Source of the DNA: Bacillota bacterium
GTDB taxonomy: Bacteria > Bacillota > UBA4882 > UBA8346
Reading direction: 5' to 3'
NCBI GenBank assembly: GCA_012728785.1
Contig: JAAYEK010000134.1
Span: forward strand, 1 to 47,624
Length of the DNA: 47,624 nt
Positions within the stretch are counted from its first letter, which is position 1. Each line of letters starts with the position of its first letter. The position numbers and the translations under genes were made by a program. Shown here in pieces: positions 15,050 through 46,142 of the stretch. The notes under the pieces are model-generated. The model worked only from the letters and a program-made list of their open reading frames with translations, had not been told where the DNA came from and ran no database searches.

Positions 15050-16897
15050 TTAAGCCTCGGCTTTTACCGTTTCTTCTTTCTCTTCTGATTTGGGTTTTTT
15101 TCCAATCAATTCTACAAAGGCTTCCCCTTCAATAGTTTCCTTCTCCAGCAAAGCATTGGCAATCTTATCAAGTAATTCCCGGTGTTCGATCACAATTTGT
15201 TTGGATTTTTCAAATGATTCATCCATAATCAGTTTGATCTCCCGATCAATGGCTGCCGCAATCTCTTCGCTATAATTCTTATCGCGGGAAATATCCCTGC
15301 CCAGGAAAACTTGTTCCTCATGTCCATGGCCGAAAGTCATATAACCCAAATTGTCGCTCATCCCATATTCCGTGATCATCCGGCGCACGGTTTTAGTGGA
15401 CCGTTCCAGATCGTTACGGGCCCCGGTACTGATCTCGCCTAGAGCAACGACTTCTGCGGCCCGACCTCCCAACATGAACACCACGTTTTCTAATAATTCC
15501 GTTCTAGTGCTGTAATGTTTATCTTCAAGCGGTAACGCTAAAGTATAACCGCCTGCTTGGCCTCTCGGAATAATCGAAATCTTATGAATCGGGTCGACTG
15601 TCGGCATAAAATGTCCGACCAAAGCGTGACCCGCTTCATGAAAGGCGGTTAACTCCTTTTCCTTAAGGCTCATGACCCGGCTCTTCTTTTCCGGTCCGGC
15701 GATGACCCGTTCAATTGCATCTTCACAGTCTTTCATAAAAATTTTCTTTTTACCCCGCCTAGCCGCAAGTAAAGCTGCCTCATTCAATACATTAGCCAAA
15801 TCAGCCCCGGTAAACATCGAAGTTTGACGGGCTAATACTTTAAGTTCTACTTCCGAGGCTAATGGCTTACCCTTAGAATGTACTTTTAGAATATCTTCTC
15901 TACCTTTAATATCGGGGATATCCAAGGTAACTTGACGATCAAACCTTCCCGGACGGAGCAGCGCCGGATCCAAAACATCAGGTCGGTTAGTAGCTGCCAG
16001 AATGATAATACCCGAGTTAGGTTCAAAACCATCCATTTCTACCAGTAACTGGTTTAAGGTTTGTTCCCGTTCATCATGACCACCGCCCAAACCAGCGCCC
16101 CGCTGTCTTCCCACAGCATCGATCTCATCAACAAAGACAATACAAGGAGCATTCTTTTTAGCCTGTTCAAATAGGTCTCTTACCCGTGAGGCTCCGACTC
16201 CGACAAACATCTCCACAAAATCCGAACCACTAATACTAAAAAACGGAGTTCCCGCCTCACCGGCTACGGCTTTGGCTAAAAGCGTTTTACCGGTGCCCGG
16301 AGGACCGATCAATAATACCCCTTTGGGGATTCGAGCGCCCAACTCGGTAAAACGTCGGGGTTGACGTAAGAACTCAACAATCTCCACCAATTCTTCTTTT
16401 GCTTCGTCTTCTCCGGCCACATCATCAAAGGTAGTTTTGGTTTTATCCTCTGCATGAAGCCTAGCGCGACTTTTTCCAAAGGAAAGCGCTTTGTTGCCGG
16501 TATTTTGCATCTGATTGATTAGAAAAAACCATAGAATAACGATCATAATAATGAATCCCAAGTTGGGAAGGAGCATCGCCCACCAACTATTACCGCTAGT
16601 GGCGAAAGAAACTTTAACCCCTTGATCCTTTAATTGTTGGTAATATAACTCAGGATGATTGATCGGCCCTTCGGTGCGAAACTTCTTATAGGTCTCTTCA
16701 TTCTGCTTGCCTTGAATTGTTCCATCATTATTATTAATGGTGGCTTCGGTAATTTTACCTTCTTCAACCCTGACGATGAACTCGTTAAAACTTATGTCTT
16801 CAACTTGGTTTGGGCTCTTCATAAAATTAACTACTAAAAATAATGCGATAATCGCCACCAAAAAATAGATCATAATTTCGCGGATAATCTTAAGCAT
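15050..16897 (-). CDS. ftsH: ATP-dependent zinc metalloprotease FtsH
   Basis: [51 protein letters not shown] zinc motif; SD GGGAGG before ATG 16897. Confidence 0.97.
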
Positions 16898-16987
16898 GTA
16901 AACCTCCCTTCGGCATTTAGCCATGTCAAATATTATACCATAGTCAAAATTTGAATACAACTTAACTACTTAACTACTTACCTATTG

Positions 16988-18463
16988 TTAATCAGACCGA
17001 ATCGGACCAAATGAAATATGCCAAAAATCGATGGAACGGTCGGTAATTTTATATAATTCATTCAGCCGATAACCTAAGACCCAAGCAATCTGGTCATCAG
17101 CGGTAACTAAAAGGGGGATACCGGTCCGTTTTTCCCGCGGTACTTTCCGGTTAATAAAAAAATCATGCAGTTTTTGACAACCAGGCGCCCCTAAAGGATG
17201 GAACTTGTCGCCATAACGCCAAAATCTGAGATAAAACGGTAATTTGAGCCGAGTAATATCCAAATAAGCTTCATGTTTACCGACTTCGTTCCAGTTTGGA
17301 ATATAATTATCTTTTTCAACCCTAATCTCTAAATCAAGTTCAGGAATTACGGTCACTCCCGGAACATTCAACCGAAATCGTTCCGCCAGAGTTGGAATCA
17401 ATCGCTCTTTTTTTTCAAAAAAAATTGCTCCTTCCAGCTTATGAGCTAAAATTTTTTTTGATAGTTGGACCGTTTTAAAATGATGGTTTTCGTTAATAAT
17501 CTTATCACGCAGTTTCAGTAAGGTCACCGACTCCAACTGTTGCTGGGGTTGGATTTCCCGTAAAACTCGTTTCAGAAGATAATATTGGAGATAAGCCGGG
17601 ATGCGCAAAAATTCCTCAATAACGATTCCTAATTGTTCCTCCCGGATTATCGTTAGTCTTTCCCATTTTTCCTCTAAAAGTGCCTCCATTAATTCCTGCT
17701 GTTCCCGGGCTAAACGTCCCAAACGGATTAAGGCGGAACTAAGATTAGGATTGTATGCTGTTTCTAGCTCCGGAATTAATTGCAATCGTATTTTATTACG
17801 GACATATACCGATTTCCGGTTTGACGAATCTTCCAACCATGAAAGATTATGCCTTAAAGCATATTCACGGATCTCCTCCCGCGATACTTCCAAAAGCGGT
17901 CTGATAAAAATATTATCTCGGATAATCGGCATCCCAGCTAAACCATCAATCCCGGTACCACGAATCACCCGGTAAAGAATGGTTTCGGCTTGATCATCCC
18001 GATGGTGACCAAGGGCTACCTTTGCAGCGTCAATCTCCTCCCTAAGGCTTATAAATATTTTATAACGTTCTTCCCGGGCTAAAAGTTGCAATGATTGCGG
18101 TTTTTCCCTTAACCGTCCAGGAATATCCAGAGTAACTTCTTTGGTTTTTAATCCCCAATGATTGCCAATTTTATGTAGAAGCTCGACTTCACGGATATTT
18201 TCGGCCGGCCGGAGTGAATGGTTGATATAAACCACCCATAATTCCAACTCATATTCCACTAATTGATGTAAAATATGAAGCAAGCATAGAGAATCAATTC
18301 CACCGGAAAAACCCACTATTACCCGGTCGCCTTTGGCCAGTAAGTCATGGTTTCTAATGGCAGCCTTAACTTTTTGCAGCAAATCAAACACCTCAAAACT
18401 GGATCTTCGCTTCTCTAAAAAAAAATCCTTGTTACAAAATTCTAATTGTTTTAGTATCTCCAA
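16988..18463 (-). CDS. tilS: tRNA(Ile)-lysidine synthetase (start uncertain; may begin downstream, about 18391)
   Basis: GDRVIVGFSGGIDSLCLLHIL PP-loop; LGHHRDDQAETILYRVIRGTGIDGLAGM. Confidence 0.9.
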   Translation of the reverse strand: MEILKQLEFCNKDFFLEKRRSSFEVFDLLQKVKAAIRNHDLLAKGDRVIVGFSGGIDSLCLLHILHQLVEYELELWVVYINHSLRPAENIREVELLHKIGNHWGLKTKEVTLDIPGRLREKPQSLQLLAREERYKIFISLREEIDAAKVALGHHRDDQAETILYRVIRGTGIDGLAGMPIIRDNIFIRPLLEVSREEIREYALRHNLSWLEDSSNRKSVYVRNKIRLQLIPELETAYNPNLSSALIRLGRLAREQQELMEALLEEKWERLTIIREEQLGIVIEEFLRIPAYLQYYLLKRVLREIQPQQQLESVTLLKLRDKIINENHHFKTVQLSKKILAHKLEGAIFFEKKERLIPTLAERFRLNVPGVTVIPELDLEIRVEKDNYIPNWNEVGKHEAYLDITRLKLPFYLRFWRYGDKFHPLGAPGCQKLHDFFINRKVPREKRTGIPLLVTADDQIAWVLGYRLNELYKITDRSIDFWHISFGPIRSD

Positions 18464-18536: not shown

Positions 18537-19814
18537 TTAAAATAACTCTTTTTCTAAAAAATGGAGTACAATTACAGTCATATCGTCCTTACAGATCCCT
18601 TCTTGGTTGATTCGTGCTAAATTCAACAAATATTCACCCAACGCCTCCGGACCAACAACTTCGACTTGACGGAGGGCCCTAATCATCCAATCTTCTTTTC
18701 CCACCTCGATTTTACTGTCTACTACGCCATCGGTAACCATGATAATCAAATCACCCGGTTGTAATTGAACAACAGTCCGCTCTAGATCAACCGAATTCAG
18801 GATTCCTGCTGGAAGAGACGTAGATTTTAAACTCCAAACCTCTCGCCCTCTTTTTATATAAGTAGTGGCTGCGCCGATTTTAATGAATTCAGTCTTTCCG
18901 GTGTAAAGATCCATTAATGTCAGATCAACAGTTGCGAAGGATTCTTCCGGGGAGCGCAGTAATAAAACTGAATTAATCATCCGCACCGCAAAATCTCGAT
19001 CGACTCCACTTTCCAATAGTTTTTCCAAAATGGAAACCGTAGCGCTGCTTTGAACGGCCGCCTTATTTCCGTTCCCCATTCCATCACTTAAAATAGCTAC
19101 AAAGTGACCGTCTTTCAACTCATTAAGAGCATGATCATCACCCGAGGCATCATTCCCATCTTTTGGTAGTTTGCAAACAACCGTCCTGACCTCATACGGA
19201 TATACCGGCGTCAAACAATAACTGCACTCACTGTTCTCCAGTTGACAATTCCGCTCCCAAACTGCGTAATCCTCACCTAACAATTGGCACATTAATGGTG
19301 TCATCAAATATTGGCATTCCCGTTTCCGATTGCAACTTTTTTGTTTAACCCTGATCTCCACTCTCTGCTCTCCCAAACCAAGGACAGAAATTTCTTTAAT
19401 ATTAATACCTGCTCGGTTCAAACAAGTCATTAATCGGCTTTCAATCTCAGCTCGAAATTCAGGGTCGGCGGTGACTTCTACCGCTAATTTATTAATAATT
19501 TGGGCCATCCCCTGTAATTGGTTGGCGAGAAAGGACTTACTCTCATCTAATTTGCGCCGCCAGTAATAATCAGATTGACATCTTTCAAACAAATGATTAA
19601 CTGTGGTCAAGAGTTTGAATTGTTGAAAACAATTCTTGGCTAAACGGCCTTTTATATGTTTGGTATTAACTTCACCATAAAGCTCGGCTAAAGCCAGTAA
19701 ATCAAATAATTCCCGGTAAGTTGAATAAAAATTTTCTCCCCAACAAGTCTCATAACCGTTACATTGCTGGCAGTTCTTGGTGCAAACTTGGTCGAGCATT
19801 GTATAAAGGTCCAT
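18537..19814 (-). CDS. spoIIE: SpoIIE cytosolic part (central region and PP2C-like phosphatase) as tracked
   Basis: CWGENFYSTYRELFDLL; VAILSDGMGNGNKAAVQSSATVSILEKLLESG; DLIIMVTDGVVDS. No obvious SD before ATG 19814. Confidence 0.85.
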   Translation of the reverse strand: MDLYTMLDQVCTKNCQQCNGYETCWGENFYSTYRELFDLLALAELYGEVNTKHIKGRLAKNCFQQFKLLTTVNHLFERCQSDYYWRRKLDESKSFLANQLQGMAQIINKLAVEVTADPEFRAEIESRLMTCLNRAGINIKEISVLGLGEQRVEIRVKQKSCNRKRECQYLMTPLMCQLLGEDYAVWERNCQLENSECSYCLTPVYPYEVRTVVCKLPKDGNDASGDDHALNELKDGHFVAILSDGMGNGNKAAVQSSATVSILEKLLESGVDRDFAVRMINSVLLLRSPEESFATVDLTLMDLYTGKTEFIKIGAATTYIKRGREVWSLKSTSLPAGILNSVDLERTVVQLQPGDLIIMVTDGVVDSKIEVGKEDWMIRALRQVEVVGPEALGEYLLNLARINQEGICKDDMTVIVLHFLEKELF

Positions 19815-19910
19815 TTTTTGAACTATCGGTTCTAGTTCGGGCTCTTCATTAAAGGACTTGGCTATTTCGGTGAAAATAGAGGATAAATCATTTAAACGGG
19901 TTAAGATTAA

Positions 19911-20963
19911 TTAGCGGACACTGTTGTTTTCCAATACCGGATCAACCGGCCTATTATCACTAGGAAAATAATTAGTAATCCGTGTCAAACAGCTTTTGGG
20001 TGTTACAATCAAAGCACCTAATCCGAATGACCAGGGAAGGATTTGGTCAATTAACGCTACTTCGGGCTGCAAATATTGAAATATAAAGTAACAACCTAAC
20101 CCTATCCCTATGGTTGTCCCCCATTTGCCTAAATTTTTTAGGAACCCTCCCCAAAATCCTATCAGGCTATACAGGGTGATCATCGCCGTTAAACCGCCGG
20201 TTGCTATTCCGATAACCATACCTAATGAAACTCCCATGGCTGCTCCAACTCCTCCTCCACCTAAGTACGCGACAAATATCAGAACCATACTGGCTACCAG
20301 ATCCGTTAGGGGCCAAGCATCGATCATTAGCTGATCAGTTCCGCCCACTGATAATAATAAAATTACTGCTAAAGCTACTACCGCTTTTTTTGATTTTCTA
20401 AACGGGTTACTGATAAAGTCCAGACCAACTTGAAAAATTCCAGCCAGTAAAAAACTGATAGTTAATTCTAGCGCCACTTTTAGGATATTATTGAGACTAG
20501 GTTCAAGCAAAACGCCTAAGGCTGTACTTAATAGGGCCCAGATTATGAAGACCGATATTTTTGACGATTTTTTTTGACCACCCGCGATCATCTGTTGTAA
20601 CAATGTAAATAAAGCAACTACACCTGTAATTCCGATACTCTCCCAAAAACCTCTAACAGTCAAGCTTCCCAATAATAAGCTGACCCATAACATAATCCGA
20701 GCCGGTACTTTTTGTTCGCGATTAACAAGGCAATACCCGATACCGGCAGGATAAATTATACCTAACAAGGAAAATCTACTTAATAAAAATATGATACCGG
20801 TTTCAAACAAAATTTTTAATAAATTAATATACCAGTTGGTTTTTCTCTTCCGGGAAGACTGCCGAAGAACTGTGGGAGAAATGTAACTACTACTAAAATT
20901 TTTTCTTACCGCAGTAGAAAGTTCAATGGCCACCTTCTCAACAACCACCCTCCTTTTTGACAC
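19911..20963 (-). CDS. spoIIE: SpoIIE N-terminal polytopic membrane part as tracked
   Basis: About 10 hydrophobic segments, immediately 5' and in frame with the phosphatase part. Confidence 0.8.
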   Translation of the reverse strand: MSKRRVVVEKVAIELSTAVRKNFSSSYISPTVLRQSSRKRKTNWYINLLKILFETGIIFLLSRFSLLGIIYPAGIGYCLVNREQKVPARIMLWVSLLLGSLTVRGFWESIGITGVVALFTLLQQMIAGGQKKSSKISVFIIWALLSTALGVLLEPSLNNILKVALELTISFLLAGIFQVGLDFISNPFRKSKKAVVALAVILLLSVGGTDQLMIDAWPLTDLVASMVLIFVAYLGGGGVGAAMGVSLGMVIGIATGGLTAMITLYSLIGFWGGFLKNLGKWGTTIGIGLGCYFIFQYLQPEVALIDQILPWSFGLGALIVTPKSCLTRITNYFPSDNRPVDPVLENNSVR

Positions 20964-21154
20964 TCACGAGAATCAGTATATCATTTCCCTTTCGATTACT
21001 ATGTCGTTTTTTCAAAGGATTTCCCACTGATTTTCCTTAGTTCTTCTTTAAAAACCATCATAAATTCAGAACAAAGAAAACTTGTCCGGTGATAACGGGT
21101 AAAAAAGGTAACGAATTTTACAGATTTGTAATTTAATTGTTTTAGAAATTTAAA

Positions 21155-26264: not shown

Positions 26265-27917
26265 ATGAATTTTTGGAACGGTTTGAAAAAAGTATTTCAG
26301 TTTGGCGCCAGGGGAAGACAGTTCTCATTGGGGAATAAATCCTGGAATAGGCCAAAGCCAAAAAAACCAAAGCCGGAACCATTATTTAGAGACTTGGAAG
26401 CAAACCAAAGGCTTTTAGAAAAGATTTTTGAGTTGCCAACCAATCAAGATGTGGTAATTAGGGACTTTTCGATCCCAAGCTTGAAACAAAAAGCCCTCTT
26501 AATATATATAGATGGCCTTTCCGATCGTAATACCCAAAGTTTTGCTATTTTACAACCGTTGATGATTCTTGGTCCCGATGAAGCTGTTAACGGTAAAGAT
26601 CCAGTCACTCTCGCCTATCAAACGTTACTCCCCGGTCATCAGTTACAAAAGACCGCTAGTTTAAGTGATGTTGTGGACGGGATATTGGATGGTTCTTCCG
26701 CCCTCCTTATCGACGGTTCGGATCAAGCCTTAATTATCGAAACCAAAGGATGGGAGCACCGGGGGGTGGACCGGCCCAACAATGAACCGGTAGTCAGAGG
26801 ACCGCAGGAAGCATTTGTAGAAAGCTTTCGGGCCAATACCGCTAGTGTCCGGCGGTATGTTAAAGATCCAAAATTGGTTACCGAAATCTTCAGAGTCGGC
26901 AAGCGGAGCCGGACGCTGGTCGCGGTGATGTATGTCAAGGATATTGCCAATGTTAAGTTGGTGGAAGAAGTAAAATACCGGATTCAAAGCGTCTCTGAAA
27001 CCGTTGATTATATTCCGGAAACAGGGACCCTAGAGGAATATTTGGAGGATCATCCCAAATCCCTCATTCCCCAAATGTTGTCTACTGAACGTCCTGACCG
27101 TTTGGGGGCCTATATCCGCGAAGGCCATGTTGGAGTGGTGATGGCCAATAGCCCCTTTTCTTTGATCATCCCGACTACCTTCACCATCTTCCTCCATTCG
27201 GCCGAAGACTATTATTTACGCTGGCCTTTCGGAAACTTTTTAAGATTTATCCGGTCAATCGCTCTCTTCATCTCCCTAATGTTGCCCGCTTCCTATATTG
27301 CAGTCATCAATTATCACCAAGAGATGATCCCCACCGATCTGTTATTGGCGATGACCGCCGCTCGGGAAATGGTCCCCTTTCCGGCCATAGCTGAAATCCT
27401 ACTTATGGAGTTCGCTTTCGAACTGATCCGTGAAGCCGGAGTCCGGATTCCCAGCGTCATCGGACCGACTATCGGGATTGTCGGCGCTTTAATCCTGGGA
27501 CAAGCGGCAGTCGCCGCCTTCGTAGTCAGTCCAATTCTGATCATCATCATTGCCATCACCGCCTTAGCGTCTTTCGTGGTCCCCAACTACAACGCCTCCT
27601 TTGCGATTCGGATCTTACGGTTCTTATTTATTATCTTAGCCGGTTTTCTAGGGTTTTTTGGAATTGCCTTTGGACTCTTTTTATTAATTTTACATACCGT
27701 TACTATTACTAGCTTTGGAGTTCCGTTTATGACCCCAATTGTTCCTTATCAACCCCGGAACAAAGATCGGGTGATTCGGCCTCGAGCTTATGAACAGAAA
27801 TATCGCCCCTTGTTTTTAAGGCCTTTGGATTGGATTCGGCAGGAAAAAAACCCCCGGCGATGGGATCGGCCCCAGAGTAGTATTGAGAAGGGAAGGGATG
27901 ACCAAAATGAGCAGTGA
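26265..27917 (+). CDS. Spore germination protein, GerA/GerKA family (A subunit)
   Basis: LIYIDGLSDRNT...YLRWPFGNFLRFIRSIALFISLMLPASYIAVINYHQEMIPTDLLLAMTAARE. Confidence 0.95.
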   Translation: MNFWNGLKKVFQFGARGRQFSLGNKSWNRPKPKKPKPEPLFRDLEANQRLLEKIFELPTNQDVVIRDFSIPSLKQKALLIYIDGLSDRNTQSFAILQPLMILGPDEAVNGKDPVTLAYQTLLPGHQLQKTASLSDVVDGILDGSSALLIDGSDQALIIETKGWEHRGVDRPNNEPVVRGPQEAFVESFRANTASVRRYVKDPKLVTEIFRVGKRSRTLVAVMYVKDIANVKLVEEVKYRIQSVSETVDYIPETGTLEEYLEDHPKSLIPQMLSTERPDRLGAYIREGHVGVVMANSPFSLIIPTTFTIFLHSAEDYYLRWPFGNFLRFIRSIALFISLMLPASYIAVINYHQEMIPTDLLLAMTAAREMVPFPAIAEILLMEFAFELIREAGVRIPSVIGPTIGIVGALILGQAAVAAFVVSPILIIIIAITALASFVVPNYNASFAIRILRFLFIILAGFLGFFGIAFGLFLLILHTVTITSFGVPFMTPIVPYQPRNKDRVIRPRAYEQKYRPLFLRPLDWIRQEKNPRRWDRPQSSIEKGRDDQNEQ

Positions 27918-29022
27918 AGAAAAGATCGGCCATCACGAGGCCTTATCGCTTTTAGTAATTATCCTTTCCGCCAAGGTCTTTTTGTCTTTCCCACGCAATA
28001 TGGCTCTCCTAGGTGACGCGGCAGGGTGGATCATTGTTTTTCTCGCGGGGATCTATAGCTTAGTGGGTTACTTCTTCCTTTCCGCTTTATTAAAGAAGTA
28101 TCCCGGTAAAAATATTATTCAAATTGCTCACCAGGTCAGTGGCGGCATTTGTGGCAAATTAATAGGAGCGGCGCTCTTCCTTTTTTTTCTGATGACCACC
28201 TCCTTGTACCTCCGCCAATTCGCGGAAAGTTTCATTTTGGCCATACTCCCCCGAACTCCCATCAGCGTCATTACCATTTTGTTCTTGATTCTGTTAGTCT
28301 ACACTGCCCTATTGGGGGTTGAAACCCTTTCCCGGGTAGCCTGGTTATTGGGTCCTTATCTGTTGATTGCTTTAATTATTATTTTCTTGTTTTCCCTGCC
28401 CCAGATGACTTTTGACCATCTAGTCCCAGTCTTGGGACCGGGTCCGGTTCCGCTCATAAAATATTCCCTTACACATCTGTCTCTCTTTTCTGAAATTATC
28501 TTGTTCGGGATAATCGCTCCCTTGATCCGAAGCCGAGAGAAGATAAACCGAATTGGTCTCTATATTCTAGGGGTGGCGGTGGTCATTAATACCGGTGTTA
28601 CCATCTTAACTACCGCAGTATTTAATTATGTAGAAACTCAAAAAATGGTCTTCCCCGTCTTCCAATTAACTCGGTTAGTCGCTTATGGCGAGTTTGTCCA
28701 AAGAGTAGAGGCGGTCTTTGTCTTTCTCTGGTTTTTCTGGGCTGGGATCCAGCTGAGCGGGTTATTCTATGGGGCCGTCACCAGTTTTGCCCAGACTTTT
28801 AGGATTAAAAACTACCGTCCCTTAACTTTACCCATCGCCGTTTTGACCTTTACGATCAGCTTAATCCCAGCTTCGATGACTGAGACGGTAGAATTGGGCG
28901 ATTATACCACTTCTCCCTCATTAATAAGTAATTACTACTCAATCGCCGCTTTTGGCATACCTTTTCTATTGTGGCTAATTGCATTTGCTAAAAAACATTT
29001 AGGTGGCGTCACTAATGATTAA
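27898..29022 (+). CDS. Spore germination protein, GerB/GerKB family (B subunit)
   Basis: About 10-TM protein, EALSLLVIILSAKVFLSFPRNMALLGDAAGWI; overlaps the A subunit gene. Confidence 0.92.
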   Translation: MTKMSSEEKIGHHEALSLLVIILSAKVFLSFPRNMALLGDAAGWIIVFLAGIYSLVGYFFLSALLKKYPGKNIIQIAHQVSGGICGKLIGAALFLFFLMTTSLYLRQFAESFILAILPRTPISVITILFLILLVYTALLGVETLSRVAWLLGPYLLIALIIIFLFSLPQMTFDHLVPVLGPGPVPLIKYSLTHLSLFSEIILFGIIAPLIRSREKINRIGLYILGVAVVINTGVTILTTAVFNYVETQKMVFPVFQLTRLVAYGEFVQRVEAVFVFLWFFWAGIQLSGLFYGAVTSFAQTFRIKNYRPLTLPIAVLTFTISLIPASMTETVELGDYTTSPSLISNYYSIAAFGIPFLLWLIAFAKKHLGGVTND

Positions 29023-30280
29023 ACGAGTCATCGTTATCGGTTTGTTAATAATGATAACTTTCCTAGCCAACGGCTGTTGGGATCGGCGTGAGTTGGAAAG
29101 CTTGGGGCTGGTTCAAGCTCTCGGGTTGGACTTAGGACCCGATCAAAAAGGAGTGACCGTAACCACTATGATCGCAATCCCATCCGAGTTAGGCGGTGAG
29201 GAAGGCGGCGGAGCCGGCGGCAAGCCCGGAGTCTTTTTGATATCCATGGATGCTCCCTCGATTTACGAAGCTTTCAACCTGATCAATACCACGGTTAACC
29301 GAGAGATCACCCTGATCCAGAACCGGCTCCTGATCATTGGCGAGGAATTAGCCCGCCATGGAGCTAACAAATGGATTGATAATCTAATCCGTTATCGCGA
29401 GATGCGCCGTACCTTGCTACTTTTCGTTTGCAAAGGAACAGCAGCTGAAATATTACACGTCCAGCCGCAGCTGGAAAATAAACCTTCGGAATACGTTAAC
29501 GCCTTAGTAGCGTTGTCACGGCGGACCGGAATGTATCCGACCGTTACCTTAAATGACTTTCTCAAACACTATGAGGCTTTTGCTCAAGAAAACTATCTTC
29601 CTCTCTTAGATAAATACCAGAGAAAAGAGGGGCCAGAAACACCTCCGGCCGAAAATCAAGCCCAATCGGGGGGAGGCGGATCCGAATCCGGTACTGAAGG
29701 AGCCTCGCCAGAAAAGAAACCGCAAAAACAGGACGACGTTCGATTTATCGGGTCGGCGATCTTTAAAAAAGACCGAATGGTCGGAACTTTCGATATCTAT
29801 GAAACTCAAATTCTGTTGCTCTTGAATGACGAGTTCAAGGAAGCGATGCTCACCGTCGAAGACCCTTTGAAAAAAGGCAATTATGTTGTTTTTAAGCTAC
29901 TGGCGACTGCACCGGGTGAAATTCAATACCGGCGTCAAAAGAAGGTTGATCAATTTAGTGTCCAATTAAAACTGGAAGCGGATCTGTTAAGTATTCAAAG
30001 TCAGATCGATTATACCCAGCCGAAACTGGAAAAATTTCTAGGCCGGGTGATTGCCGGAGAAATAAAAAACCGGGTTGAGAAGGCGATCAAAAAAGCCCAA
30101 CAGGAGTATAACTCCGATGTCTTCGGTTTCGGTAAAAAAGTCAGGCGTACCTTTATCACCTCTGGTGATTATGAAAAATATTATTGGCCCGGCAAATTCA
30201 AAGACGCCCAGGTTAATGTGGATGTCAAAGTAGATCTGCGCCGGGTCGGTGTCCAATTCCAGCCTCCGGAGAATCGGTAA
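29015..30280 (+). CDS. Spore germination lipoprotein, GerC/GerKC family (C subunit)
   Basis: Lipobox FLANGCWDRRELESLGLVQALGLD; overlaps the B subunit gene. Confidence 0.93.
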   Translation: MIKRVIVIGLLIMITFLANGCWDRRELESLGLVQALGLDLGPDQKGVTVTTMIAIPSELGGEEGGGAGGKPGVFLISMDAPSIYEAFNLINTTVNREITLIQNRLLIIGEELARHGANKWIDNLIRYREMRRTLLLFVCKGTAAEILHVQPQLENKPSEYVNALVALSRRTGMYPTVTLNDFLKHYEAFAQENYLPLLDKYQRKEGPETPPAENQAQSGGGGSESGTEGASPEKKPQKQDDVRFIGSAIFKKDRMVGTFDIYETQILLLLNDEFKEAMLTVEDPLKKGNYVVFKLLATAPGEIQYRRQKKVDQFSVQLKLEADLLSIQSQIDYTQPKLEKFLGRVIAGEIKNRVEKAIKKAQQEYNSDVFGFGKKVRRTFITSGDYEKYYWPGKFKDAQVNVDVKVDLRRVGVQFQPPENR

Positions 30281-35912: not shown

Positions 35913-36074
35913 CCACCGCGGGTTAAAACCCACGGCTAAGTATAAAAAGCATTCCAAAGCCCGTTCTTACCTGGCTCGGTGGTACTCCGAAGCCGAATAG
36001 CGGAGGGTAGTCGATCCTGGATGGGATTTAGAACGTTTTTATATACCCAGCCGTGCGGTTTTAACCCGCGGTGG
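35913..36074. repeat. Long imperfect inverted-repeat element between binding protein and permease genes
   Basis: Left arm ccaccgcgggttaaaacccacggct (35913-35937), right arm agccgtgcggttttaacccgcggtgg (36049-36074); pairing continues inward (GTATAAAAAGC / GTTTTTATATAC). Confidence 0.8.
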
Positions 36075-39531: not shown

Positions 39532-42500
39532 TCATCTCCCCTGCGTTAACTCTTCCGCTATCAATTCCGCCTGTTTCAACACCGTCTCCGTCGCCAGCAT
39601 TTGCATATCCGGCGGATAACCATATTGACGTAGGACCCGTTTCACAATGACCTTCAGTTTCGCTTTGACGCTTTCTCTGATAGTCCAGTCGATTGAGGCG
39701 TTTTCCCTAACCTTCTGATACAAAACCACCGCCAATTCTCGGAGTTTTTCTTTACCCATTATTTCTTGCGCGCTTTCATTGTTGGCGACAGCAGAATAAA
39801 AGGCATACTCATAGTCGGATAAGCCCATCTCCTGGGGTTCCTTATCCATGGCTTGGATTTCTTTCCCCAGATTTATCAGTTCTTCAATGACCTCGGCAGC
39901 GGTAATAATTTTGTTATGATACTTTTTAATGGAATTCTCCAGCATCTCCATTAAGGTCTTGCTTTGAACCAGGTTCTTTTTAGCCCGGGCTTTAATTTCA
40001 TCATTCAGAAGTTTTTTCAATACTTCCAAAGCGATGTTTTTATGCTCCATATTCTTGACTTCAAGCAAGAATTCTTCGGAGAGGATGGAGATATCCGGCT
40101 TTTTAATACCTGCCGCATCGAAAACGTCAATTACTTTTTCGGTGACAAGGGCTTGATCGATAACTTGTTTAATAGCGGTTTCAATTTCGGCGTCGCTTTT
40201 TCCAGGCCCGGCGCTTTCGAATTTGACCAAACGGGATTTGACCGTTTGGAAGAAAGCCACCTCATCTTTGACGTCCATTGCCTGCTCGTGAGGGATGGCG
40301 ATAGCGAATGCTTGGGATAGGGCGGTCACTTCATCGATAAACCGCTTCTTACCGTTTTCCAGACCGAGAATATGTTCTTCGGCGGCCAAAATGATGGATA
40401 GTTTCCTTCCGGTGTCCGCTTCGAAGTATTCTTCATAAGCGAAACCATGGAACATCTGCGAGACCACTTCCAATTTGGCCAGCATCAATTGGACCGCTTG
40501 CTCCTGGGCGACTGCCGGATCGCCTTTGCCACCGGCGGTGGAATAGAAGGACAAGGCTGCTTTTAAATCCGAGGCGATCCCCAGATAGTCTACGATTAGC
40601 CCGCCTTTAACCTGCCCATAAACCCGGTTTACCCTGGCAATGGCCTGCATCAGATTATGCCCCTTCATGGGCTTGTCGATATATAGGGTTTTGAGGCAGG
40701 GAGCGTCAAAACCGGTCAGCCACATATCACGGACGATAACCAATTTCAATTCGTCGTCCGGGTCTTTCATCCGTTCGGCAAGACCTCTCCGCTGCTCTTT
40801 AGTGGTATGGTGTTTGGCGATCTCCGGCCCATCGGAGGAAGCCGAAGTCATAACCACTTTGATGACACCCTTTTTTAGGTCGTCGCTATGCCACTCCGGC
40901 CTCAAGTCGATGATTGCTTGATATAGTTCGGTGGCGATCCGCCGGGACATGGCGACAATCATGGCCTTGCCGTTGATAGCCTCCTGACGCCGTTCAAAAT
41001 GGATCACAATATCTTCGGCCACGTGTTTAATCCGATCCTTACTGCCGATCAATGCCTCCAATTGGGTCCACTTGGCCTTGGCATTTTGAGTTTCGGTAAG
41101 TTCGGCCTGTTCCAGATCGTCATCAAATTCTTTGATTAATTTTTTACCCTCATTACTCAGGCCAATTTTGGCGAGGCGGCTTTCGTAGTAAATACGCACC
41201 GTAGCGCCGTCAGTTACGGCTTGGGAAATATCATAGATATCAACATAGTTGCCGAATACCGCCGGAGTATTGACATCCGTTCCTTCAATCGGCGTGCCGG
41301 TAAACCCGATATAGGTAGCTTTAGGTAAAGCGTCCCGCATGTATTTGGCGAAACCGTAAACAATCTTCTTACCGATTACATTACCGTTTTCATCTTTAGC
41401 GTCGATGTTCTTCGCCTTGAACCCATATTGGGTCCGGTGGGCTTCATCAGCAATGACAATAATATTTTCCCGATCGGAAAGTTGTTCATAAACATTGCCC
41501 TCCTCGGGCTGGAACTTTTGAATGGTAGTAAAAACAATCCCGCCGGAAGCCACCTTTAAAAGGTCTTTTAATTGTTCCCGGTTCTCGGCCTGTATCGGGT
41601 CTTGTCTCAACAATTGCCGGGAGGCGGCGAAAGTATCAAAAAGTTGATCATCCAAATCGTTACGGTCGGTAATCACCACTACGGTGGGATTGTCCATCGT
41701 CAAGACGATTTTGCCGGTGAAAAAGACCATGGAGAGAGATTTACCGCTGCCCTGGGTGTGCCAGATCACGCCGCCTTTCCGGTCTCCGACAGGCTGGTCT
41801 TTGACGCCGGGGACGCCGTAATTTTCGGGGGATTCTTTTACGGTCGATGGTTGGGATGATTGATGATAACCCGATGCCCTAAGCGCCGATTCTACCGCCC
41901 GGTTGACCGCGTAATATTGATGATAGGCCGCGAGTTTCTTGATGGTTTGGATGGTGATGATACCGGTTTCTTTGTCTTCCTTTTTTGTTTTTTCAAAGAC
42001 ACTAAAATGGCGGATCAGGTCTAAGAGAGTCGTTTTATTTAACATCCCTTTGATGAGCGTTTCCAACTGGCCGATTAGGGGCGATGCTTCAACTTTGCCG
42101 TCACTGCTTTTCCAAGCCATAAAACGGCTATAATCAGCCGAAATCGAACCAGCCTTGGCCTCCAAGCCATCGGAGATGACCAAAAAACCATTGTAGGTAA
42201 AAAGGGTAGGGATAGCTTGTTTATAGGTTTGTAACTGTTTAAAGGCTGAATGAATAGTCGCGTTTTCATCCGCCGCGTTTTTCAGTTCAATGACAACAAG
42301 AGGTAAGCCATTTACAAAGAGAATAACATCCGGGCGTTTGTTGATATTATTTTCGATAACAGTAAATTGGTTACAAACCACAAAATCATTTTTCTCCGGG
42401 TCGTTAAAATCAATCAGCCAAACCAGATCTCCCCGGCTCTGTCCGTCCTTTTGATAGGTAACTTTGATACCTTCGGTTAGCATTCGGTGAAAGGTTTCGT

Positions 42501-42756
42501 TATTTGAAATAAGTTCCGGCGAGTTGATGCGTTGGATCTGTTTAATGGCATCCTCGCGTACATCGGCAGGAATTTTCGGATTGATACGGGCAATAGCTTT
42601 CCTTAGTCTTTCAAGTAGAAGAACATCTTCAAATGATTGCCGAGCGGGTGTTTCACTGTCTGGGGCGATGTCAGGGCCGTAAATATAATGGTAGCTCTGT
42701 TTTTCAAGAAGTTCTATTGAAAACTCTTCTATTACAGATTCGGTAATTCTATTCAT
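39532..42756 (-). CDS. hsdR: Type I restriction endonuclease subunit R
   Basis: PDVILFVNGLPLVVIELKN nuclease motif; GGVIWHTQGSGKSLSMVFF; DEAHRTQYG; TYIGFTGTPI. Confidence 0.97.
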   Translation of the reverse strand: MNRITESVIEEFSIELLEKQSYHYIYGPDIAPDSETPARQSFEDVLLLERLRKAIARINPKIPADVREDAIKQIQRINSPELISNNETFHRMLTEGIKVTYQKDGQSRGDLVWLIDFNDPEKNDFVVCNQFTVIENNINKRPDVILFVNGLPLVVIELKNAADENATIHSAFKQLQTYKQAIPTLFTYNGFLVISDGLEAKAGSISADYSRFMAWKSSDGKVEASPLIGQLETLIKGMLNKTTLLDLIRHFSVFEKTKKEDKETGIITIQTIKKLAAYHQYYAVNRAVESALRASGYHQSSQPSTVKESPENYGVPGVKDQPVGDRKGGVIWHTQGSGKSLSMVFFTGKIVLTMDNPTVVVITDRNDLDDQLFDTFAASRQLLRQDPIQAENREQLKDLLKVASGGIVFTTIQKFQPEEGNVYEQLSDRENIIVIADEAHRTQYGFKAKNIDAKDENGNVIGKKIVYGFAKYMRDALPKATYIGFTGTPIEGTDVNTPAVFGNYVDIYDISQAVTDGATVRIYYESRLAKIGLSNEGKKLIKEFDDDLEQAELTETQNAKAKWTQLEALIGSKDRIKHVAEDIVIHFERRQEAINGKAMIVAMSRRIATELYQAIIDLRPEWHSDDLKKGVIKVVMTSASSDGPEIAKHHTTKEQRRGLAERMKDPDDELKLVIVRDMWLTGFDAPCLKTLYIDKPMKGHNLMQAIARVNRVYGQVKGGLIVDYLGIASDLKAALSFYSTAGGKGDPAVAQEQAVQLMLAKLEVVSQMFHGFAYEEYFEADTGRKLSIILAAEEHILGLENGKKRFIDEVTALSQAFAIAIPHEQAMDVKDEVAFFQTVKSRLVKFESAGPGKSDAEIETAIKQVIDQALVTEKVIDVFDAAGIKKPDISILSEEFLLEVKNMEHKNIALEVLKKLLNDEIKARAKKNLVQSKTLMEMLENSIKKYHNKIITAAEVIEELINLGKEIQAMDKEPQEMGLSDYEYAFYSAVANNESAQEIMGKEKLRELAVVLYQKVRENASIDWTIRESVKAKLKVIVKRVLRQYGYPPDMQMLATETVLKQAELIAEELTQGR

Positions 42757-43403
42757 TTGTCCCCTTCCTCACTCTCAACAAATGCTTTTAGTTCATTAAT
42801 ATATGCCGGGTAATCAACATTGTAAAGAATTTCACTCGCAGGGAAGGAATAATCTCTCATTTTAAATTCTCCATATATATCATCCAAAAAGTCATTAAAA
42901 TCAGCATTATCTTCATACGATATTTGAGTTTCTTCCGGTGCTAAAATACGTGGGTTTTCATTTTCAAATGTGCGAATAAGAAAACAGGCAATTATTATAG
43001 TAGAGTCAATTAAAAACTCTTTTGTTAAATTATCTATTTTGTTATTCCGCTCTCGCAATTCCTCCAATGAACGCCCGTGAGATATAGTACCAATTTCATT
43101 TCGGATTTCACCAATTTGTTGACCTATAGTTGCAAGAGATGATGAAATCTGAGTAACCATCGTTTCGCCAGAATATCCAATAGCTGAAAAAGCTTTTTTT
43201 AATACAGAGTTGATGCTCGATGTACCATCAAGCAAAATACCTTTAGATGAACATATTTCTTTGCCTATTGTTTCTAACAAAGCTTTGGCATTCTCAACGC
43301 ATTGACTAAAATCTGCAACCTGAAACATCTCAATTCGTTCAGTGTAAATTGTCAGGTCTGACCAACGCCCATACTGATTTATGACTCTCTTTAGTTTATC
43401 CAT
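42753..43403 (-). CDS. Abi_C/HEPN-like abortive-infection family protein inside the hsd operon
   Basis: CVENAKALLETIGKEICSSKG...LATIGQQIGEIRNEIGTISHGRS resembles the Abi_C RNxxGxxSHG motif; ATGA overlap with hsdR. Confidence 0.55.
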   Translation of the reverse strand: MDKLKRVINQYGRWSDLTIYTERIEMFQVADFSQCVENAKALLETIGKEICSSKGILLDGTSSINSVLKKAFSAIGYSGETMVTQISSSLATIGQQIGEIRNEIGTISHGRSLEELRERNNKIDNLTKEFLIDSTIIIACFLIRTFENENPRILAPEETQISYEDNADFNDFLDDIYGEFKMRDYSFPASEILYNVDYPAYINELKAFVESEEGDK

Positions 43404-43422
43404 TTTTTACTCCGACATAATT

Positions 43423-44604
43423 TCATACTTTCACTTTTATTTCACCGCTTATTAACTTTGGTAAGAGAATATCATGTAATTTTTCAAGAGCGCGAATCTG
43501 CTTGGCATTTTCAATCTGTTTATTCAATAAAGGTGTCATTAGCTCTGACATATTAATTAGTTCCTTATCAGATGGAATCAGCACTTTTGCTTTATCTAAA
43601 TCTCCCCTTTTAATATGTCCCATAGTAGTTGCATGGCTTGAAGAAATCGAAACAAACTCAGCTAAATGATGTTTGCACCATGCTAAATAAAACCATTTCG
43701 GAAATTTGTCCGAAGAAACCTTGAATAAATGTTGATTAAGTACGCACTTTTCACCATCCCAAACCTTTACCATCAATGATGCAGACCACGCAAAAATAAC
43801 ATCGCCTGTTTGAACTATATATTCGTGATTAACCTCAGAAGTTGCCCAATCTGATAACTCGGAAATTCCATTGCTAAGTTCTTTTATTTTTAAGACAGGT
43901 AATTTATCTAATTCATTTTTTGGTGGAATTTTTTGACAAGCTAAGCCGTTCAAAAAATTAGCTACACTGCTTAATGGTCTTTCCTCCCACCACTCATTCC
44001 TTTCCTCCACAAACCACTGCCTAAAAAGCGTTTCCGCCATGGCTTCAAGGGTTTTGTTCTGGCGGTGGAGCAGGTCTATCTTAACGTCGAGGCTGGAAAG
44101 CACCGAGGCAATTGCACGTTGTTCAGGTAGAGGGGGTAGTGAGAAAGTATACTCCTTAATTCTTGATGGTGATGTATGCATAATTGAGGTACCACTTGCA
44201 CCACCAACGATAAAGCCGTGGTATTCATCAGTCCTCATTAACCAGTAAATAAAATCAGGAATAACTTCTTTTGATTGAATTTTGAGTAATCCAATTCGCT
44301 GATTATGCAAATACTTTACACCAGTGTCATAAGGGATTTTTGCAGAATATCCTAAGGTGTCTGATTCTTTGCTTAAATCGGTCATTGTTACTACAATGTC
44401 GCCACCTTGAAGAACATACTCTTCAGGATAGTTGCCATTATAATATTTAAACTTGCTGTATTTAAATCCACCACCAATATGAAAATTACCTGGTGTCACT
44501 AATACATTTTCGGTGGGTTCTGAAGTTATGTTTTCCCCTTTAAATGCAAAGCCATGCTTTATATCCAAAAGATCACCAATAGAACATTCCTTCCACTCAC
44601 TCAT
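43423..44604 (-). CDS. hsdS: Type I restriction enzyme specificity subunit S
   Basis: Two target-recognition-like halves; [61 protein letters not shown]. Confidence 0.95.
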
Positions 44605-46142
44605 CCCAGTTTCACCTTTTTCAAGTTCTCCAAAATCACCGCGTTGAGCCTTTCTTCTTCTTTCAACTGTGCTTCAAACTCAGCCTGCAAACTGGTAAAA
44701 CGCTCCTTAAAATCAAAATCATCTTCTTCATCAGGCAATCCCACATACCGGCCGGGGGTCAACACATAATCCAATTCCCGCACTTTTTCAATACTGGTGG
44801 AATTGCAAAATCCTTTAATATCCTCATACTTTCCGTCCGAATTGCGCCAATTATGATAAGTATCAGCGATCTTTTGGATATCCTCCGCCCCTAACTCTCT
44901 GGTTCTGCGATTAATCAAATACCCTTCGTTTCGGGCGTCGATAAAAAGAATTTCATCAGTACGATTACGATAGCCGCCGTTTGATTTGTCCCGGCTTAAA
45001 AACCAAAGGCAGGCCGGGATCTGGGTATTTAAAAACAGCTTGGCGGGCAGGTTGACGATACAATCCACCAACCGGGCTTCAATTAATTCCTTACGGATCT
45101 CCCCTTCCCCGGAAGTCTTGGAGGTGAGCGATCCCTTTGCCAAAACAAATCCGGCGATACCGCTGGGGGTCAAATGATACAAAAAATGCTGAATCCAAGC
45201 ATAGTTGGCGTTACCGGAAGGCGGTACGCCGTACTTCCAACGACCATCATTACGGAGCAAGTCGCCGCTCCAGTCGCTGTCGTTAAAAGGCGGATTGGCG
45301 ATGACAAAGTCAGCTTTCAAATCCTTATGGGCATCGTTTAAGAAAGAACCTTCATTGTTCCACTTGACCATCGTGCTATCAATCCCACGAATGGCAAGGT
45401 TCATTTTACACAACCGCCAAGTAGTCTGGTTGCTCTCCTGCCCGTAAATGGAAATATCATTGACCTTACCCTGATGATTATCAACAAATTTCTCCGATTG
45501 AACAAACATCCCGCCCGAGCCACAGCAGGGGTCAAAGACCCGGCCTTTATAAGGCTCCAACATTTCTACAAGTAATTCAACAACACTGCGGGGCGTATAG
45601 AATTGGCCACCCTTCTTCCCTTCCGCCAGGGCGAACTCGCCTAAGAAGTATTCGAAGACATGACCTAGAACATCGGCGCTCCGGTCTTTGGCTTCGCCAA
45701 GTGCGACATTGCCAATCAAGTCAATCAGTCCGCCTAAGTTGGTTGGGTCAAGGTTCCCACGGGCGTAAACCTTAGGCAGCACATCTTTTAGGGAGGGATT
45801 ATCCTTTTCAATAGCTTCCATGGCGTTATCGATTTCCTTGCCGATGGTGGGGAGTTTCGCCTTGGATTGCAAATAAGACCAGCGGGCAATCTCCGGGACA
45901 AAGAAGACGTGCTCCGCTTTATATTCGTCCTTGTCCTCCGGGTCCGCTCCGGCATATTCACCTTGGCCGCTTTTTAGCTTGTTATAAAGTTCCTCAAAAG
46001 CGTCGGAAATGTAACGTAAAAAAATAAGTCCCAGAACAACATGTTTATATTCGGCGGCGTCGATGTTTTTTCTAAGTTTGTCCGCAGCCTTCCAAAGCTG
46101 TTTTTCGATGGGTTCTTCTTTGGTATTGTTTTTGTTAGCCAT
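44601..46142 (-). CDS. hsdM: Type I restriction-modification DNA methyltransferase subunit M
   Basis: [18 protein letters not shown]...[29 protein letters not shown] (NPPF). Confidence 0.97.

Follow-up and report, generated by a model that had tools for sequence, protein, structure and literature searches.

The window, the whole stretch of 47,624 nucleotides that was analysed, is one entire contig of a single 3.7-Mb draft assembly in 296 contigs. On its minus strand, positions 20963 to 18537 form a single SpoIIE frame of 809 codons, in sequence and translation, whose sole internal stop is a TAA at 19913-19911 (codon 351); the rest of the frame is recognisable as SpoIIE throughout. The 5' part (19914..20963, minus strand; 350 codons from a GTG at 20963) comprises the N-terminal tail and the multi-pass membrane domain SpoIIE_N (PF19732, 36-331). 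Between the stop and the next ATG lies a 32-codon stretch (19815..19910, minus strand) that is covered by the relatives' alignment, and beyond it the downstream C-terminal part (18537..19814, minus strand) holds the regulatory domain and then the PP2C phosphatase domain (PF19732, 386-603, and PF07228), aligning with the B. subtilis SpoIIE structures 5ucg and 3t91. The two pieces match TIGR02865 in the correct order, 7-296 and then 348-762, and a genome-wide profile search also marked '1 TAA' within one continuous SpoIIE match. Because the relatives' alignment is ungapped across the position, the continuation of the SpoIIE frame past the TAA exceeds chance. The stop separates the membrane domain from the regulatory/phosphatase part, and sequence, translation, domain matches and ungapped relatives all bear out the earlier note, which had described a lone in-frame TAA between these regions. 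The SpoIIE domains are not carried on a single unbroken polypeptide, and the gene is a degraded or misread member of SpoIIE and not a separate family.

The listed start, GTG 20963, was found to have no Shine-Dalgarno sequence. The start is uncertain (GTG 20963, 20948 or 20933) because a GGAGGG falls just within the listed ORF (window 20933-20963), in an arrangement shared with the genus-mate, and the true start may lie slightly further in. The genus-mate shares the conserved upstream region (20964..21154, minus strand), in which both have a TATACT element, and this is a probable promoter region. The downstream neighbour is tilS (16988..18463, minus strand; PF01171 and PF11734), and ftsH also lies nearby (15050..16960, minus strand; PF01434, PF00004 and PF06480); the spoIIE-ftsH neighbourhood is kept among endospore formers (synteny, PMC4714977). 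Elsewhere in the window, a spore germination operon with GerXA-like and Ger(x)C-family proteins and an intervening ORF (26265-30280) has no obvious breaks. A type I restriction-modification set identified with Pfam occupies 39532-46142 (HsdR 39532-42756, HsdM 44601-46142), and the 393-residue ORF between the two may be HsdS. Between genes at 35913-36074 sits a repeat, about 165 bp long and bounded by imperfect inverted ends of about 52 bp, with related copies (81-86% identical) in sampled contigs of the genus-mate, namely L035, L081, L090, L086 and partly L095; Rfam gave no match for it in the window, and a small mobile or structured element is one possible identity.

We examined the stop position among relatives, an alignment check that the earlier note had proposed, and the stop was absent from every relative readable there. 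The single genus-mate compared has an uninterrupted spoIIE, 84% identical in the C-terminal part, and all family and class relatives readable across the site are likewise uninterrupted. Within the class, SpoIIE_N was matched in 28 of 29 genomes, and in a phylum draw of 399 genomes the stronger SpoIIE matches, about 150, were listed; among the class genomes and the matches listed for the phylum, the window's copy is the only one with an internal stop. Of the eight relatives from the genus or the family, seven have Glu (GAA or GAG) in the stop column, namely the genus-mate and six of the seven aligned family members, and the remaining one has Asp; the column varies among more distant relatives. 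Since the column is Glu or Asp in these close relatives, one substitution explains the TAA, and the flanks on both sides are constrained. Several apparent split genes were rejected as such: in G012 the gene is spread over two contigs, in G003 it contains a run of N, in G047 the contig ends, and in G032 what looked like an internal TAA is the normal terminator of an ORF of 734 residues. A contig scan returned three loci only, of which one is G003 and the other two are distant. It was also noted that four loci from one genus in the class (L022, L025, L026 and L029) have SpoIIE frames of about 630-650 residues against the usual 800 or so, and that their N-terminal membrane part appears reduced.

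The unbroken protein-level signal across the stop is what read-through of the TAA, yielding some full-length SpoIIE, would leave behind. A TAA with a T after it is not known as a leaky context. Programmed read-through is argued against because the stop has this context and is unconserved, being found in no relative among the 29 class genomes and the approximately 150 listed phylum matches. No ochre-suppressor tRNA was found among the tRNAs of the sampled contigs, which cover part of the genome. Read-through had been left as an option by the earlier note; with uninterrupted homologs and a lesion that is isolated in the sampled part of the genome, we consider it exceedingly improbable.

The TAA lies where the membrane domain meets the regulatory domain, which would also suit a functional split: one protein would carry the membrane domain, and re-initiation at ATG 19814 or further on would yield a soluble regulatory/phosphatase protein. 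Soluble fragments of B. subtilis SpoIIE have served in phosphatase assays (PMC4714977, PMC3517971). The B. subtilis 457-827 fragment forms a dimer taken as the active state (PMC5468089). From the phosphatase alignment, we infer that a product from ATG 19814 would begin near B. subtilis residue 390; missing from it would be the N-terminal tail and the membrane domain, along with some 70 residues of the regulatory domain. However, a designed split is unlikely because ATG 19814, 96 nt beyond the stop, has no Shine-Dalgarno pairing, as had been noticed earlier, and is Ile in the genus-mate. The 32 codons ahead of it are conserved as protein, though they would go untranslated in a true split. Homologs with a two-gene arrangement and a conserved Shine-Dalgarno sequence before the second ORF had been named as the mark of a genuine split. 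No two-gene arrangement was found in the genus-mate, the 29 class genomes or the approximately 150 listed phylum matches, and the second ORF of the window has neither a Shine-Dalgarno sequence nor a start conserved in the genus-mate.

A split form would also be expected to misregulate, because both loss of the N-terminal FtsH tag and changes at the membrane/regulatory boundary disturb control. In B. subtilis, 71% of cells activated sigma-F non-specifically once the tag was lost (PMC4714977), and changes at SpoIIE residues 334 and 344 uncouple activation from septation (PMC3517971). We therefore regard a functional split as very unlikely, and an organism that activates sigma-F with a separate membrane anchor and soluble phosphatase, dispensing with membrane-tethered, FtsH-tagged SpoIIE, as a shade less likely again. 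Nothing in the sequence supports either a designed split or read-through.

We assessed whether the gene carries signs of decay by comparing it with the genus-mate, where synonymous sites are near saturation. The pN/pS values were 0.246/0.679 for the membrane part, 0.186/0.685 for the roughly 32 codons that follow the stop, and 0.090/0.770 for the C-terminal part. Fast evolution of the membrane part is common to all relatives. In relative-rate counts the window's lineage had no consistent excess: with L004 and L011 as outgroups the counts were even, and L008 and L009 gave raised ones for the membrane part. The membrane part, the gap stretch and the phosphatase part thus all look to be still under constraint, and no independent decay was found that would mark loss of function and speak for a real allele. 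Constraint on all parts of the gene, together with the conserved upstream region, indicates that the TAA, if it is real at all, is young relative to the divergence from the genus-mate.

The rest of the genome was then considered. A genome search found no second SpoIIE_N protein elsewhere, and two further PF07228 proteins were rejected as a second SpoIIE, their matches being different and weaker. The spoIIAA-spoIIAB-sigF cluster looks intact and adjoins a DacF-like gene (SpoIIAB is a profile match; its neighbours were named from order and from sequence by eye). SpoIVA is present without stops, as is SpoIIR, whose profile score is just below the cut-off. A lesion scan of 433 kb of the same genome, sampling about 350 coding-like ORFs, sought stops with long coding ORFs in frame on both sides and an extended start-codon-free stretch after them. 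Of its four candidates, spoIIE alone showed a clear coding signal across the start-free stretch, and no second lesion of this kind was found in the sampled 433 kb; the scan criteria were fixed after two weaker versions had missed spoIIE, so that the gene stands out but the scan is no blind test. Generally poor assembly or widespread pseudogenes were not seen in these 433 kb. By their coordinates, the other 'stops' from tblastn against the genus-mate look like ORFs on the antisense strand or frames extended upstream of a start codon.

These observations bear on whether the TAA is real. In this fragmented draft it may instead be a fault of base-calling or consensus, or the assembler may have promoted a variant from a minority strain, the organism's own spoIIE being ordinary and intact. 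A single substitution suffices for this, everything else in spoIIE is intact, the genome is a draft of 296 contigs, and the sporulation pathway genes examined are whole. However, such errors appear infrequent in this assembly, because no other such fault was found in the approximately 350 sampled ORFs. We consider an error of this kind a serious possibility that falls short of probable. A real single-base nonsense substitution, recent and carried by the ordinary full-length spoIIE of a strain or population, is slightly more likely than not; it is slightly favoured over a consensus error, as a matter of judgement, because the sampled rest of the genome has no similar fault. That the locus carries a one-base lesion of spoIIE with no designed function is, in either case, very probable. 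The earlier note's option of an error or recent nonsense mutation, and its lean towards a recent or tolerated lesion, are supported by the unsplit homologs, the unconserved ATG lacking a Shine-Dalgarno sequence and the isolation of the lesion in the sample.

Should the nonsense allele be real, translation from the normal spoIIE start would end shortly past the membrane domain, and little or no SpoIIE phosphatase would be made. SpoIIAA-P would then keep its phosphate, leaving sigma-F inactive, and sporulation is predicted to halt at stage II. This phenotype is drawn from spoIIE mutants of other species, as null mutants of clostridia and B. subtilis do not sporulate (PMC7522474, PMC3517971). One sampled population would probably be unable to complete sporulation despite its other examined sporulation genes being whole, a warning that the presence of genes is by itself no safe guide to spore formation. 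A TAA that is an error would be a routine fault of a draft genome. Neither reading alters the understanding of SpoIIE or adds a new kind of split or read-through gene.

Among known systems, the locus resembles SpoIIE (TIGR02865, PF19732 and PF07228) in its domain order, its length and its tilS/ftsH neighbourhood, and the solved B. subtilis protein can be aligned to its phosphatase part; unlike known SpoIIE, it has an in-frame stop that occurs in no other genome examined. In literature searches on premature spoIIE stops and on read-through, judged by titles and abstracts, no natural spoIIE stop was found. Sporulation is blocked by spoIIE20 of B. subtilis (Gly698 to stop) and by a spoIIE deletion in Clostridium beijerinckii (PMC3517971, PMC7522474). 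The lesion described here, in a draft genome, would be of the same kind as these nonsense or null alleles, but its stop precedes most of the regulatory domain.
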